Source of the DNA: Cellvibrionaceae bacterium 1162T.S.0a.05
GTDB lineage: Bacteria > Pseudomonadota > Gammaproteobacteria > Pseudomonadales > Cellvibrionaceae
Reading direction: 5' to 3'
NCBI GenBank assembly: GCA_000964245.1
Contig: LANB01000001.1
Location: forward strand, 1,405,501-1,469,500
Length of the DNA: 64,000 nucleotides
Shown here: piece by piece, positions 43,164 to 62,961 of the stretch
Layout: the number at the start of each line of letters is the position of its first letter
How positions within the stretch are numbered: the stretch's first letter is position 1
Made by a program: the position numbers and the translations under genes
Notes under the pieces: generated by a model
The model's input: only the letters and a program-made list of their open reading frames with translations
The model's database searches: none
What the model was told of the DNA's origin: nothing

Positions 43164-43601
43164 ATGAAACAAAAAATTATTTTTGCTGTAGCCTTTACCT
43201 GCCTATTATTTTCGTCAACACTTTTTGCCGTCGACTCCAAAAATTTCGGGGAATACAGTGTTGATTACACAACCTTTCCCAGCACGGCCATTACCTCCGA
43301 AATCGCGTCTATTTACGGCATCAAGCGCAGCGCCTACGAAACACTGATCAATGTTTTTGTCAGCAAGCAGGGTCAGCAGGGCGGCCTTGACCTTAACATT
43401 CGCGGCAGCGCCAAAAACCTGATGGGCCAACAGCAAACCTTGCAATTCCTGGAAATCAAGGAAGACAATACGGTTTACTATATCGCGCCAATACGCGTCA
43501 GCGGTAAAGAGGAAGTCTTGCACATCACCATTGAAGCCGAACTCGCTGACGGCAGCCAACGTTTCGATATTAATTTTTCAAAAACTTTTTACACACAGTA
43601 A
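43164..43601 (+). CDS. Exported DUF4426 family protein
   Basis: Periplasmic protein of 145 residues with a signal peptide (KQKIIFAVAFTCLLF, cleavage near LFA-VD, about residue 23). The remainder is a single beta-sandwich-like domain, with FGEYSVDYTTFPST and IYGIKRSAYETLINV as family features. Function unknown. It consistently sits between metW and rdgB in pseudomonads and relatives, and is separated here by a few bases on each side. Confidence 0.85.
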   Translation: MKQKIIFAVAFTCLLFSSTLFAVDSKNFGEYSVDYTTFPSTAITSEIASIYGIKRSAYETLINVFVSKQGQQGGLDLNIRGSAKNLMGQQQTLQFLEIKEDNTVYYIAPIRVSGKEEVLHITIEAELADGSQRFDINFSKTFYTQ

Positions 43602-43605
43602 ATTC

Positions 43606-44250
43606 ATGTCAAAAAAAATCGTACTTGCAAGCAGCAACGCCGGCAAACTTAAGGAATTTCAAATTTTATTAGCCGACTGCGGCTTCGACGTCCTCCCGCA
43701 AGCGGAGTTCAACATTCCCGATGCCGATGAAACAGGTCTCACCTTTGTCGAAAATGCAATTCTGAAAGCCCGCAACGCCTGCGCACACAGTGGCTTACCG
43801 GCTCTGGCTGACGATTCCGGCATAGAAGTCGATGCCTTAAAAGGTGCGCCAGGCATATACTCTGCTCGCTTTAGCGGAGAAGGCGCCACAGACGCACGCA
43901 ATAATGCAAAATTATTAGATGCGCTAAAAGGATTACCCAGAGAACAACGCAGCGCGCGTTACCAATGCATTCTCGTTTACATGACCCACGCGGAAGACCC
44001 AACACCCATTATTTGCCAGGGCGCCTGGGAAGGGTACATTCTGGAAGAAGAAGTCGGCGAAAATGGTTTTGGCTATGACCCATTGTTTTTTGTTCCTGAC
44101 CATGACTGCTCCTCTGCACAGTTGTCCAAAGAAGTGAAGAACAGCATTAGCCATCGTGCAATTGCAATGCAAAAGATCTTGCTGGAATTAAAAAAGCTCC
44201 AGGGAGCCTCTGGTTTTTTAAGAGGCCTGCATAATCCTGATGAATGCTGA
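43606..44250 (+). CDS. rdgB: RdgB/HAM1, dITP/XTP pyrophosphatase
   Basis: House-cleaning nucleotidase of 214 residues that hydrolyses dITP, dXTP and ITP. Motifs: VLASSNAGKLKEF (about 6-18), ADDSGIEVDALKGAPGIYSAR, QGAWEGYI, GFGYDPLFFVP and SHRAIAM. The conserved part ends near residue 197. The last 17 residues (GASGFLRGLHNPDEC tail) are extra compared with E. coli (197) and are encoded over a terminator-like hairpin. ATG 43606 follows the DUF4426 stop by four bases. Confidence 0.93.
   Translation: MSKKIVLASSNAGKLKEFQILLADCGFDVLPQAEFNIPDADETGLTFVENAILKARNACAHSGLPALADDSGIEVDALKGAPGIYSARFSGEGATDARNNAKLLDALKGLPREQRSARYQCILVYMTHAEDPTPIICQGAWEGYILEEEVGENGFGYDPLFFVPDHDCSSAQLSKEVKNSISHRAIAMQKILLELKKLQGASGFLRGLHNPDEC
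44199..44219 (+). terminator. Terminator-like hairpin inside the end of rdgB
   Basis: Stem ccaggg / cctctgg (one G-T pair, 3-base loop) followed by TTTTTT. It overlaps rdgB codons for the extra C-terminal residues, so it would act on transcripts before the stop codon is passed unless masked by ribosomes. Confidence 0.55.
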
Positions 44251-44398: not shown

Positions 44399-45689
44399 AG
44401 AACGCCAGCCCAATTTGCAAAGCACCGCCTTGCATCTCATCGCTTTGCATATAACTCGCTTCCATCGCAAAAAAACCAAGCGACCAGGCAAAGCCACCCG
44501 TCATCACATCGGAACGAAAACCACTGAGATCGTGTTTATAGCCAAAACGTAAATCAATGGTCCAAAGCGGATTAAATTCGACACCAAAACTAACATCCTG
44601 ACTTGGCGACTCGCCAGCAACCGGCTTGTTTTCAACGACATCCACATCCAAACCGACCGCAACCCAGTTGTTAACATAACCCATCCCTAGACGAGTGCGA
44701 GGCTGAAAATTTATCTCCGGGCTGTCTTCAGCAAAACGAAAACTTTCGGGGACCACATCCTTGATGGCGAGACCTACGCGAAAGGCATCGTAAAACTCTG
44801 CTGCAACACCGAGATCAAAATTGAAACTGTAATGCGCGACGGCGTTTTCCCTGAACTCGGTATCGGTGCTGGCGACGGAGCGTGCTTCGCGATAGACATC
44901 CGTCCGTTTCGCTTTTGGCGAGACACCAAAGGCAATATCGTAACCGTAGATTTCGAACTCTTTCGACAAACTCAACCCCACCTCGGTAATGCCCACCGCA
45001 CCCACATCGTAACGTGAGGTGACGCCGTCGGAAGGGTCAATCAAGTTGCCGTTGTCATCCAGTAAATAATCAAATTCTGCACCCGGCGTGCCGCCGCCAC
45101 CGATGATATTCAAATAACTTCGGTAATCATTGAGAATGGTCTGGTCTTCTGCGGTGTAGTCAACACGGCCACCTGCAATCAGGCGAGTACCCAAATAAAA
45201 ACTTCCGCCTTCACGTTTTGCGGGTTCGGCCACCACCATGCCCACAAAGGCATCGGCAATGTAATCCCGGTCGGCAACCTGAAAGGCGAGGTCTTCAAAT
45301 TCATCGATCAGGGCGGACACTTGCAGGGCGCCGCCTACCGGGTCTGCGTTGTAGGCTGCAACCGCATCGTCAAGGCGCTGGTCGAGATCGTTGTCTTCAA
45401 CAGCCTCCAATACATCGAAGGCCTCTTCGTAATATTGGCCTGCGACTACAGGGAAGAAGAAACGCCCGTCCCGACCTTCATCCTCATTCCGGTCGTGAAA
45501 TGAAAGCAGGGCCGGGTTATAGAAGATGGCATTTTCGTGATTGCCAACGGCAACACCCACACCTCCCATACCTGCGGCGCGCGCTTCGTAGATACCGTAG
45601 TTCACGGCAAATGCAGGCTGCTGCACTGCAGTGATGCTGCCAAGCAAGAGGAGAGAGAGGGTGAAAGGTCCAGATTGTTTAAATTTCAT
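44397..45689 (-). CDS. TraF-like (PF13729 type) outer-membrane beta-barrel protein
   Basis: Exported protein of 430 residues with signal peptide (cleavage near AFA-VN, about residue 26). GIYEARAAGMGGVGVAVGNHE.. and AIFYNPALLSF give the FadL/TraF_2-like N-terminus; the rest alternates short strands ending in WSLGFFAMEASYMQ and a terminal aromatic (GLAF), typical of outer-membrane barrels. Members are annotated conjugal transfer TraF, but no conjugation genes occur here, so that label says little. ATG 45687-45689 starts the signal peptide; an ATG 28 codons earlier is rejected. The stop codon touches the family B repeat. Confidence 0.75.
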   Translation of the reverse strand: MKFKQSGPFTLSLLLLGSITAVQQPAFAVNYGIYEARAAGMGGVGVAVGNHENAIFYNPALLSFHDRNEDEGRDGRFFFPVVAGQYYEEAFDVLEAVEDNDLDQRLDDAVAAYNADPVGGALQVSALIDEFEDLAFQVADRDYIADAFVGMVVAEPAKREGGSFYLGTRLIAGGRVDYTAEDQTILNDYRSYLNIIGGGGTPGAEFDYLLDDNGNLIDPSDGVTSRYDVGAVGITEVGLSLSKEFEIYGYDIAFGVSPKAKRTDVYREARSVASTDTEFRENAVAHYSFNFDLGVAAEFYDAFRVGLAIKDVVPESFRFAEDSPEINFQPRTRLGMGYVNNWVAVGLDVDVVENKPVAGESPSQDVSFGVEFNPLWTIDLRFGYKHDLSGFRSDVMTGGFAWSLGFFAMEASYMQSDEMQGGALQIGLAF

Positions 45690-45859
45690 TACTTCGCCTG
45701 TTATCACGTTATATTTTGCGATCGACTTTTGTTCATTTGGATTCGATTCATTGAAAACTTTAGCACTGGTCACAGTTGATTTGGCGCTGTGGCTTTCTCA
45801 AGGCAATTATTGTGCAAACAATGTCTCGAAAAAAGATTGAATCCCATTTATTCTCTTGA

Positions 45860-59500: not shown

Positions 59501-60238
59501 TTAAAGCCGACTCAGTAATTCGCGAACACTGGCAACATGGCGGCGACTGACAACAGGACGGTAATCAGCCTCTTTTAATTTAATTTCGTATTGCCCGGCA
59601 CTGTTGCGCTCCATGCCTTCAATTTTCTCAATTGCAACCAGTGAATTGCGGTGTACACGGACGAATTTTTTCGGGAATTCGAGTTCGAGCTCTTTTAGCG
59701 TGTCATCAATCAGGGTTTCCCCTTCTTCGTGCACGACGGTGACGTATTTATGGTCAGCGACAAAACAGTGGATGTTAATGATGGGAATTAATTCAACGCC
59801 TTTACGCGTTTTTGCGGAGATGTGCTTGCGCTGGCTATCGTCTTCTTCACTTTCATTTTGCAGTGAATGTTTTTGAACTTTGGTTGTTTTTTGTGCTTTG
59901 CTCAGGGTCGCAACAAGTTGATCTTCCTGCACAGGCTTCAATAAATATCCCACGGCCAGTGTTTCAAAGGCTTCAAGCGCATACTCGTTATAGGCAGTAC
60001 AAAAAATCACAGCGGGCGGTTCGGGGAGGTCTGCGATGGCATGAGCGGCACTCAGGCCATCTTCACCGGGCATGCGAACATCCATTAATACAATGTCCGG
60101 ATCATGCTCTTCAATCGCCGCCAACGCCTCAGCGCCATTGGTTGCTTCGCCAACCACTTCGTGCCCTTCGAGCGATTCAATCATTTTTACCAGTCGAAGG
60201 CGCGCAAGGTCTTCGTCATCGACAACCAATATGTGCAT
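59501..60238 (-). CDS. algR: AlgR, LytTR-family response regulator
   Basis: Response regulator of 245 residues. Receiver: [15 protein letters not shown], phosphoacceptor Asp in [15 protein letters not shown] (about 54), Lys in [11 protein letters not shown]-terminal LytTR DNA-binding domain: [20 protein letters not shown] and [15 protein letters not shown] with [12 protein letters not shown]. In Pseudomonas AlgR controls alginate, twitching (fimU-pilVWXY1Y2E) and virulence genes. It is downstream of its presumed kinase algZ by 36 bases. Confidence 0.94.
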
Positions 60239-60274: not shown

Positions 60275-61318
60275 TTAATGCCTAACAGGATTATGAACCA
60301 ATGGATACCTCACACTTACCTTGAATGTATCCTCTTCCTGTTCAGTTTTTAGTAAAGCTTGCGTGCCGTAATAAGCATTTAGTCTATGTTTGATGTTTTC
60401 CAGGGCAATGCCATTCCCCTTGTAGTCCGAATGGCTCACATTCGGGTCCCCAACCGGGTTGCTGATTTCAAATTGAATATACTTGCCGTTACAGCTCGCA
60501 TTAAATTCTATTTTACCGCCTTCAAGAATAGGTTGAATACCGTGGTAGATCGCATTTTCCAGTAGCGGTTGGATCAACAAGCTTGGAATCGTCGCATGAT
60601 CAGGAATATCTTTCACTTGCCAATCCATTTCCAGGCGCTTGCCAAAGCGTAATTTTTCCATTTCAACAAATTTTTCGCAGAGCTGCACTTCGTGAGAGAA
60701 CAAAACCAGTCCCGGTTGATCCAGGCTTGCACGAAACAGGTGCGCGAGATTCACAATCATTTTTTCGGCGACAGCGGGATCAATTGTAATCAAGCTGGCA
60801 ATTGCATTCATACTGTTAAAAAGAAAGTGAGGGCGAATGCGCGACTGCAGACTTTGAATGCGCGCCATCAGTTCTGCTTGTTGCTGATTGCTAAGTTGCT
60901 GCTGAATGTAAAAATAACGCAATGCAACGCCCGCAAAAACCGCAGCGATACAGATATTACTGAGAAGCTGATTCAGGTTTTTAAATATTTCACCTGTTTG
61001 AAACCATTCACCCACCAGGGAAAAAAATACCGTAAAGCCCAACACAATGGCATAACAAACCGTGCCCGCAAAAATCGAGTTGTGGCGTCGCAACCAGCCA
61101 CGCAAGGGACAAAGACAGGCTGCTGAACACATGGTGATCCACAGAACAAGGAAAGAAACCATGCCAAATCGCAACCAGCTAAATCGGGTGACGCCCATGT
61201 CGGCCACGACTAATGCGAATGAGAGCAATTCTCCCACCAGGACCAGTGAAAGAATGGCTTGAACGTTACAAAGATCAGGGAGGAAATCGCCTCTCTGATC
61301 AGACGCGGGAACTTTAAT
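60275..61318 (-). CDS. algZ: AlgZ/FimS, LytS-type sensor histidine kinase, apparently with an ATT start
   Basis: Membrane sensor of 347 residues (Pseudomonas about 358). Several N-terminal helices occupy roughly residues 20-140; the PF06580 region has RPHFLFNSMNAIASLI (His phosphoacceptor candidate) and the ATPase SLLIQPLLENAIYHGI and GNGIALENIKHRL. The in-frame GTG at 61235-61237 would begin inside the first helix. Upstream of it the frame stays open and encodes DFLPDLCNVQAILSLVLVGE, matching the conserved family N-terminus, back to a TAA at 61334-61336. That stretch has no ATG, GTG or TTG. ATT at 61316-61318 has AGGAG seven bases upstream and is the best start. Confidence 0.88.
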   Translation of the reverse strand: MKVPASDQRGDFLPDLCNVQAILSLVLVGELLSFALVVADMGVTRFSWLRFGMVSFLVLWITMCSAACLCPLRGWLRRHNSIFAGTVCYAIVLGFTVFFSLVGEWFQTGEIFKNLNQLLSNICIAAVFAGVALRYFYIQQQLSNQQQAELMARIQSLQSRIRPHFLFNSMNAIASLITIDPAVAEKMIVNLAHLFRASLDQPGLVLFSHEVQLCEKFVEMEKLRFGKRLEMDWQVKDIPDHATIPSLLIQPLLENAIYHGIQPILEGGKIEFNASCNGKYIQFEISNPVGDPNVSHSDYKGNGIALENIKHRLNAYYGTQALLKTEQEEDTFKVSVRYPLVHNPVRH

Positions 61319-61519
61319 AGGCGTGCTCCTGGCTTAATCTGCGAACAATCATTATGGATTCTGGATCAGCAAGCATGGCGAGCTTTATTCACTTGTTTAT
61401 TCTTTCTATTCTTTCTATTGCCGTCTTTGGCCATAGCGATGTCCAGACTATGCCCATGCACTGCCGACCCGGGTTCTTGTCGCTGTATTGCCTGTTTTAG
61501 TTTGTGCTCACTTAATCTG

Positions 61520-61525
61520 TATAAT
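61520..61525 (+). promoter_or_regulatory. -10 element of the argH promoter
   Basis: TATAAT 39 bases before the argH ATG, in the spacer divergent from algZ. The -35 region at 17 bases is poor (ttagtt). Transcription would start near 61532, giving a leader of about 30 bases. Confidence 0.5.
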
Positions 61526-61563: not shown

Positions 61564-62961
61564 ATGAGTTCAGAAAAAGAAACCAATAAGTCCTGGGGTG
61601 GCCGTTTTAGCGAAGCCACCGACACTTTTGTTGCCCGTTTTACCGCCTCTGTGGATTTTGATCAACGCCTTTATGCGCAGGACATTCAGGGCTCAATAGC
61701 CCATGCCACCATGCTGGCTTCTGTGGGTGTGCTGACTGAAGAAGAGAAAGATCAGATCATCGAGGGCCTCAGTGACATCAAGGCGGAAATCGAGGCGGGG
61801 CAATTTGCCTGGTCTGTCGAACTTGAAGATGTCCACATGAATATCGAAGCCGCCTTGACCAGGCGCATTGGTATAACCGGGAAAAAATTACACACCGGTC
61901 GCTCCCGAAACGACCAGGTCGCCACCGATATTCGCCTGTATTTACGCGATCAAATCGATGTCATTGCTGCCGAGCTCACGCGCCTGCAAAAGGGCGTGTT
62001 AGCACTCGCCGAAAAAGAAGCTGAAACCATTATGCCGGGTTTTACACATTTACAAACAGCGCAGCCCGTGACATTTGGTCATCACTTGATGGCCTGGTAT
62101 GAAATGCTCAATCGTGACTACGGACGCTTGATGGACTGTCGCAAACGGGCGAATCAAAGCCCTCTCGGCGCTGCAGCGCTCGCCGGCACCTCCTACCCGA
62201 TTAACCGTGAATTGAGTTCAGAACTTCTGGGCTTTAGTCAGCCCACGCGTAATTCACTGGATTCAGTCAGTGACCGCGATTTTGCCATCGAGTTTTCCGC
62301 TTTCGCTGCCCTGTTGTTAACGCATATGTCTCGCGCCAGTGAAGAACTCGTATTGTGGACGTCTGCACAATTTAACTTTATCGAGTTGCCCGATCGCTTC
62401 TGCACCGGCTCATCCATCATGCCGCAAAAGAAAAATCCTGACGTGCCGGAATTAGTGCGAGGAAAAAGCGGACGCGTTAACGGCAATTTAGTTAGCTTGT
62501 TAACTTTAATGAAGTCCCAGCCCCTGGCTTACAACAAGGACAACCAGGAAGACAAGGAACCCTTATTTGACAGTGTGGATACCGTGCGCGATTGTTTGCG
62601 CGCTTTTGCAGACATGGTGCCTGCCATTGTGGCCAATCGCGACGTGATGTACGAAGCGGCCAAGCGCGGTTTCTCGACCGCGACAGACCTCGCAGACTAC
62701 CTGGTTCGCAAGGGCATTCCTTTTCGGGATTCACATGAAATCGTCGGCTCAGCGGTAGCCAAGGGTGTTGCGGAGAAGCGGGATTTATCTGATATGAGCC
62801 TTGAAGAATTACAAGCCTTCTCGCCGGAAATACAGGCCGATGTGTTTGATGTTCTCACGCTCGAAGGCTCCGTTGCGGCGCGCGCGCACCTGGGCGGCAC
62901 TGCACCCGCGCAAGTTCGCGCTGCAATTGCTGATGCTAAAAATGCGTTGGATCAACGATAA
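61564..62961 (+). CDS. argH: ArgH, argininosuccinate lyase
   Basis: Enzyme of 465 residues for the last step of arginine synthesis. It begins with [19 protein letters not shown] (about 10-28); [26 protein letters not shown] and the superfamily signature [19 protein letters not shown] (Ser catalytic, about 280) follow. ATG 61564. It is divergent from algZ, as in pseudomonads, and convergent with the Crc gene. Confidence 0.97.

Follow-up and report, generated by a model that had tools for sequence, protein, structure and literature searches.

AlgZ, a sensor kinase of the Cellvibrionaceae, is probably translated from an AUU codon in one member, with AUU or AUC recurring at the same place in relatives

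Only a small number of bacterial genes are known in which AUU, AUC or AUA is maintained as the start codon. In E. coli, the gene pcnB encodes poly(A) polymerase, and its AUU start, as Binns and Masters reportedly described in 2002, limits its expression. The genes infC and pcnB are named in PMC9410913 as the only two AUU genes in E. coli. The start codon of infC is ATT in E. coli and ATC in Streptomyces (PMC5472188), and AUA in S. aureus (PMC13009471). IF3 disfavours start complexes on non-AUG codons (PMC5472188), and its effects on AUU/CAU pairs in vitro are described in PMC10158994. In Streptomyces, sigR starts at GTC in 32 of 34 species and at GTT in 2; it is repressed by IF3, and IF3 level and fidelity alter its yield (PMC5472188). 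For infC fidelity mutants, the same paper quotes rises of 3- to 15-fold. In S. aureus, cvfC1 (AUU) and ccpN (AUA, shared with B. subtilis) carry an extended Shine-Dalgarno and yield about 10% of AUG in poor medium, with ccpN rising to about 30% in rich medium (PMC13009471). Conserved ATT codons were also considered as starts of V. fischeri ainS (PMC5601948).

In P. aeruginosa, algZ (fimS) encodes an orthologous kinase, judged by name and arrangement, and lies divergent from argH with algR downstream (PMC8787478). It starts at ATG and was disrupted in that paper by changing ATG to TGA, which sets it apart from the gene described here. The same source mentions that algR has a promoter within algZ, by which the two genes would be uncoupled in that species. 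Among the papers listed in our literature searches, judged by title, abstract opening or selected passages, we found no report of an AUU or AUC start for algZ; most subscription papers lie outside the library searched.

The window analysed here is a stretch of 64,000 nucleotides, positions 1405501-1469500 of the single-contig genome (4,404,964 bases) of Cellvibrionaceae bacterium 1162T.S.0a.05. Read from ATT, its algZ gene occupies 60275-61318 on the minus strand and encodes a LytS/AlgZ-type histidine kinase of 347 amino acids, followed by a stop codon. The product matches Pfam His_kinase (PF06580, E 4.4e-21, residues 152-229), and several hydropathy peaks in its first 150 residues indicate membrane segments. 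The gene order also agrees with an AlgZ/LytS-type kinase. Directly downstream lies algR (59501-60238, minus strand), a LytTR response regulator with Pfam Response_reg and LytTR domains, an ordinary ATG and a Shine-Dalgarno of dG -6.9; argH (61564-62961, plus strand, assigned by Pfam), with an ATG start, is the divergent upstream neighbour.

The algZ frame is closed upstream by TAA at 61334-61336 (minus strand) and then reads GCC AGG AGC ACG CCT ATT AAA GTT CCC GCG TCT GAT CAG AGA GGC GAT TTC CTC CCT GAT CTT TGT ... CTG GTG. From this TAA to the GTG at 61235-61237 (minus strand), the frame contains no ATG, GTG or TTG, so none of these codons is able to start the conserved protein. The same interval contains AGGAG (61326-61330, minus strand), ATT (61316-61318, minus strand) and the codons for GDFLPDLCNVQAILSLVL, with the conserved motif GDFLPDLC at 61268-61291 (minus strand, from the alignment), upstream of the first canonical codon. 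AGGAG lies 7 nt before ATT, a Shine-Dalgarno distance, and its duplex with the 16S tail gives dG -6.6 kcal/mol. The initial annotation had described both the frame without canonical codons down to GTG and the ATT seven bases after AGGAG, and both were confirmed when the positions were re-read.

Such an arrangement is rare in the window. In a comparison set of 45 largely non-overlapping stop-to-stop frames of at least 150 amino acids, the first ATG, GTG or TTG occurs at codon index 17 or lower in 43; it comes later only in algZ (index 32) and in the frame at 43423-44247 (index 36). The Pfam domain of the latter, Ham1p_like, does not begin until frame residue 66, so that a downstream start costs nothing conserved as far as is known; in algZ, by contrast, the conserved motif and the beginning of the first transmembrane segment (TM1) precede the first canonical codon. 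Close to this second frame, and adjoining MetW-type and Ham1-family genes, we observed a chromosomal gene for a TraF_2-type protein (PF13729, a name that derives from the transfer operon of the F plasmid) at 44400-45797 on the minus strand.

If algZ were instead translated from the GTG at 61235-61237, the conserved stretch upstream would be untranslated. GTG is a canonical codon and the first one in the frame, which favours this reading. The stretch before it, however, is conserved as protein across genera. We compared 20 codons from GDFLP in 15 AUU or AUC (AUY) loci, comprising 14 of the family and one, L161, from outside it. Pooled pS was 0.779 against a pN of 0.198, and pS exceeded pN in 105/105 pairs. 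The shifted frames, scored on stop-free pairs, gave pS/pN of 0.384/0.309 (pS above pN in 26/36 pairs) and 0.114/0.423 (0/66). The entropies at the three codon positions across the N-terminal stretch were 0.74, 0.27 and 1.42, and an alignment of 13 sequences contains the conserved FLPDLC motif. This pattern indicates that the N-terminal motif is under protein-level selection. Furthermore, GTG falls at residue 28, inside TM1, whose hydropathy peak is the 19-residue window from residue 21, and a start there would remove the first TM1 residues. The GTG codon is also not fixed in relatives, as its place is taken by seven different codons (GTG, GTT, GTC, GTA, CTC, CTG and GGC) in the 15 segments. 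We therefore regard a start at GTG as highly improbable and read the frame from ATT below.

The strongest evidence for the ATT comes from relatives. We searched 144 genomes of the family, one per species, and 143 gave a match, though in a few cases just a partial or paralogous one. We read 110 algZ loci (30 including the window's own, and 80 others); the 33 matched genomes outside these comprise 29 of genus g22 together with G007, G008, G023 and G052. ATT (8 loci) or ATC (6 loci) stands behind a good Shine-Dalgarno, with dG from -5.6 to -12.2, in 14 of the 110 loci, which belong to 11 genera (L001, the window's own, and L005, L006, L007, L008, L009, L010, L011, L012, L016, L018, L020, L026 and L060). 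Five of them (L001, L005, L008, L016 and L060) contain no ATG, GTG or TTG within 60 codons before the motif, and an AUY codon is found at Shine-Dalgarno distance in 5/5. The other nine do contain a canonical codon in frame, but its Shine-Dalgarno is weaker (+0.6 to -4.8). The two least certain calls are among these nine: L011, with an ATG 6 codons upstream (-4.8), and L018, with a TTG 6 codons downstream (-2.5). In the remaining 96/110 loci, one or more ATG, GTG or TTG codons lie in frame, and none of these loci was called AUY; the trait is therefore not shared by the whole family. Several algZ starts share their post-start letters (ATT AAA, ATC AAC) with infC of this family.

The initial choice of the 14 loci was made by visual inspection, in which the Shine-Dalgarno could be seen; all of them later cleared the energy threshold of -5.5 kcal/mol or better at an aligned spacing of 4-8. 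The scripted table holds 104 family loci; six others (L044, L051, L059, L062, L087 and L091), all with in-frame canonical codons, were dropped because the motif pattern failed. Five further loci passed the scripted test (a non-canonical codon with a good Shine-Dalgarno, no canonical one) and were excluded by eye: L046 (ATT, -5.6), L078 (ATT, -6.6, which has an ATG 3 codons downstream), L050 (CTG), L054 and L109. Canonical codons lie nearby in all five. In genus g22, ATA and ATT codons with a marginal Shine-Dalgarno were rejected as noise, because an in-frame ATG precedes them by a few codons in these loci.

The relatives also bear on whether a sequence or assembly error, or a strain-specific mutation, simply removed an ATG. 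Such an event would go unnoticed in a data set with one genome per species in which the window's genus has no second member. It is hardly credible here, because in thirteen other, independently sequenced family genomes the corresponding position holds ATT or ATC, preceded by a Shine-Dalgarno. The same thirteen loci supply the comparison of this site in related genomes that the initial annotation had proposed, and they indicate an old, recurrent AUY state that makes use of both ATT and ATC. The annotation's main claim, that algZ starts at ATT, is thus supported by position, Shine-Dalgarno and protein conservation, and above all by the codons of the relatives.

Outside the family, we read 80 algZ loci from the same taxonomic order (60 and 20). 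Of the first 60, 56 could be scored; L165, L180, L186 and L199 gave no motif match. Two of the 56 (L161 and L184) have no canonical codon within 60 codons. In L161, from family f12, which is represented by one genome, GGAGGTAGCGCA is followed by ATT (dG -10.8). In L184, from family f19, AAGGAGACTTCC is followed by CTG (dG -9.2). Of 16 f19 loci (L184, L200 and L301-L314), three (L184, L301 and L302) have no canonical codon and carry CTG behind AAGGAG (dG about -9), and several others have competing ATG, GTG, CTG or ATT codons. These three loci suggest CUG starts of algZ in another family. Among 80 loci from named records, two were flagged by the script as lacking a canonical codon. One of them, L208, proved a script artefact with an ATG present and was not counted. 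The other, L223 from a Rhodanobacteraceae bin, has no ATG, GTG or TTG and a single CTG before the motif, which may be a CUG start or an artefact of the bin.

To judge the Shine-Dalgarno match, only loci free of selection on it can be used, namely L001, L005, L008, L016, L060 and L161; that 14/14 family loci pass is not an independent test. The unselected set comprises 7 loci without a canonical codon: six have AUY with a good Shine-Dalgarno (five of the family and L161) and one has CTG (L184). In the background, ATT or ATC has such a Shine-Dalgarno in 149/2995 cases inside algZ bodies and in 93/1603 in upstream DNA. The chance that all six AUY loci pass is about 1e-7, as estimated from the ATT and ATC counts in the six frames.

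Neighbouring genes do not share the feature. In the same 30 loci, an in-frame canonical codon is present at or before the aligned protein start of algR in 30/30 and of argH in 30/30, and algZ has none within 60 codons in 4/30 (L001, L005, L008 and L016). The infC gene served as the positive control: in 31/47 family loci, no canonical codon precedes the conserved INDQ region. In the other 16, a canonical codon is present, yet in each an ATT or ATC has the better Shine-Dalgarno (-6.4 to -9.5). The smallest margin is in L285, with GTG at -7.9 (spacing 2) against ATT at -9.5. The infC gene of the window's genome is one of the 16, with an ATG three codons before ATC; the ATC has -9.1 at spacing 7 and the ATG -1.7. 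Stray canonical codons, as in nine of the 14 algZ loci, are therefore no argument against an AUY start in this family. We also observed that the infC codon behind the Shine-Dalgarno, ATT or ATC, varies between genera in L284-L300 and L114-L143, that three infC loci of genus g31 have two ATT codons in tandem, and that the canonical codons in the 16 loci could mislead gene callers.

The phylogenetic distribution points to repeated change. Mapped onto a 110-locus algZ tree, the AUY label requires 7 changes compared with 13.4 for shuffled labels, and on a careful 34-row tree it again requires 7, compared with 11.1; gene trees with long branches are uncertain. A single AUY clade, and with it a single origin, was rejected on the 34-row tree (lnL difference 89, p-AU 6.6e-15). 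The AUY state thus appears to have been gained or lost repeatedly in the family, where the change counts fit gain as well as loss. One supported group joins L022 (ATG TTA AAA) and L008 (ATT TTA AAG), a difference resembling a single-base substitution at one shared site.

We also considered relaxed selection, in which AUU is indeed the start, little product is needed in these lineages and start quality drifts without regulatory meaning. The canonical relatives are compatible with this, as the canonical codon with the best Shine-Dalgarno, not a proven start, is often GTG or TTG in 90 family loci (ATG 43, GTG 25, TTG 22), and a weak start may be tolerated across the family. Drift should not strengthen the Shine-Dalgarno, however, and its median is -7.0 for the AUY loci (n=14) against -3.65 for the best canonical codon (n=90; Mann-Whitney p 2.3e-6), a contrast that is partly selected. 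A switch from AUG to AUU is also rare, at 1 of 61,358 ancestral AUG starts in the broad survey of PMC5622118, where a stronger Shine-Dalgarno paired with a weaker start codon is a pattern reported for GUG and UUG genes. We consider drift alone an unlikely account of the AUU start, though one that deserves weight.

Re-initiation was considered as another route to the AUU. A 12-codon ORF in another frame (61314-61352, minus strand, ATG at 61350-61352) ends in a TAA that overlaps the ATT (ATTAA), so a ribosome terminating there could restart on the AUU. L005, the nearest AUY relative, has an ORF of equal length and position, and non-AUG re-initiation is documented in E. coli with mutant initiator tRNAs (PMC2268962). 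No such ORF is present, however, in 8/15 AUY loci (L006, L007, L009, L010, L012, L018, L020 and L060), and in five further loci besides L001 and L005 its stop is placed differently, at 1 to 19 nt upstream of the start. The overlap follows partly from the letters ATTAA themselves, and the AUU has a good Shine-Dalgarno regardless of the ORF. Coupling to an upstream ORF was rejected as a general mechanism, because the matching geometry occurs only in L001 and L005 and the ORF is not conserved. For the window's gene, we judge that the AUU being used mainly by re-initiation is improbable.

Other signals around the start were also examined. A scan for a sigma-70-like promoter of algZ found none (0, compared with a mean of 0.6 in shuffles), and a hairpin over the start was rejected, as 61276-61360 folds no better than shuffles (z -0.54). 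On the plus strand, a TATAAT at 61520-61525, 38 bases before the argH ATG, was not called by the promoter scan. In 27/30 loci, its reverse-strand form, ATTATA, lies no more than 260 nt ahead of the aligned start of algZ and is perhaps the argH -10 element.

Taken together, we consider it very probable that algZ starts at the AUU at 61316-61318, chosen by AGGAG and presumably disfavoured by IF3, so that the kinase would be scarce compared with a normally made AlgR, and that the state recurs in the family. In the proposed mechanism, AGGAG 7 nt upstream would select the AUU. The initiator anticodon CAU would pair with the A and U of AUU or AUC and leave the third base unmatched, and IF3 would destabilise such two-base-paired initiation complexes. 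AlgZ yield would then be a small fraction of the AUG rate, a steady low output; low expression is what published AUU and AUA reporters lead us to infer by analogy. With algR made normally from its own ATG and Shine-Dalgarno, low AlgZ output would result in a low ratio of kinase to regulator, with the sensor kinase scarce relative to the response regulator. Kinases are commonly kept scarcer than their regulators, and this ratio may be the purpose of the weak start.

The known systems resemble algZ in part. Like algZ, infC has an in-frame AUH codon behind a Shine-Dalgarno, and unlike algZ it encodes IF3, which creates a feedback loop that a membrane kinase cannot form. The initial annotation had invoked feedback through IF3; this applies to infC, and algZ would be a possible IF3 target outside any such loop. 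E. coli pcnB resembles algZ in having AUU on a gene other than that of IF3 (as cited in PMC9410913 and PMC13009471), and it differs in having no sensor role. Streptomyces sigR shares with algZ a conserved non-canonical start, a strong ribosome-binding site, a regulatory function and the use of two codons, and its weak start helps to bring about an excess of RsrA, its antisigma partner (PMC5472188), a skewed partner ratio that may be likened to algZ and algR. It differs as a sigma factor gene of a Gram-positive with another codon, and as one whose IF3 dependence was, according to PMC5472188, shown by experiment. The conserved AUH starts of ccpN and cvfC1, with their extended Shine-Dalgarno, are also similar, whereas they belong to a transcriptional repressor and a small protein, respectively, and were mapped by ribosome profiling (PMC13009471). 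RcsD-Hpt of Y. pestis is a phosphorelay protein made from an internal AUU with a predicted ribosome-binding site; unlike algZ, a full-length kinase across genera, it is a fragment of 103 residues, encoded by a frameshifted gene of a single species (PMC10191623).

A response of AlgZ to IF3 activity is possible, by analogy with the IF3 treatment of non-AUG codons and the precedent of Streptomyces sigR (PMC5472188). In its fullest form, AlgZ synthesis would increase whenever 30S subunits outstrip the supply of IF3 and decrease when IF3 is plentiful, AlgZ/AlgR would read growth or ribosome status without a dedicated sensor, and algZ would be a recurrent member of an IF3 regulon, through AUY here and CUG in part of another family. 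We put this forward tentatively, as a doubtful extension of the start assignment.

AlgZ would thus join the small class of conserved non-canonical starts, in which it stands out as a sensor kinase and by its recurrence within a family; the start assignment is well supported from sequence comparison, and the regulatory claim is plausible by analogy. Gene callers that accept only ATG, GTG or TTG would be expected to mis-start AlgZ in such genomes and to cut its first membrane segment. That a sensor kinase carries AUY repeatedly in one family, and possibly elsewhere, points to start-codon quality as a means of setting the ratio of kinase to regulator, and would link a two-component system to the fidelity of initiation.
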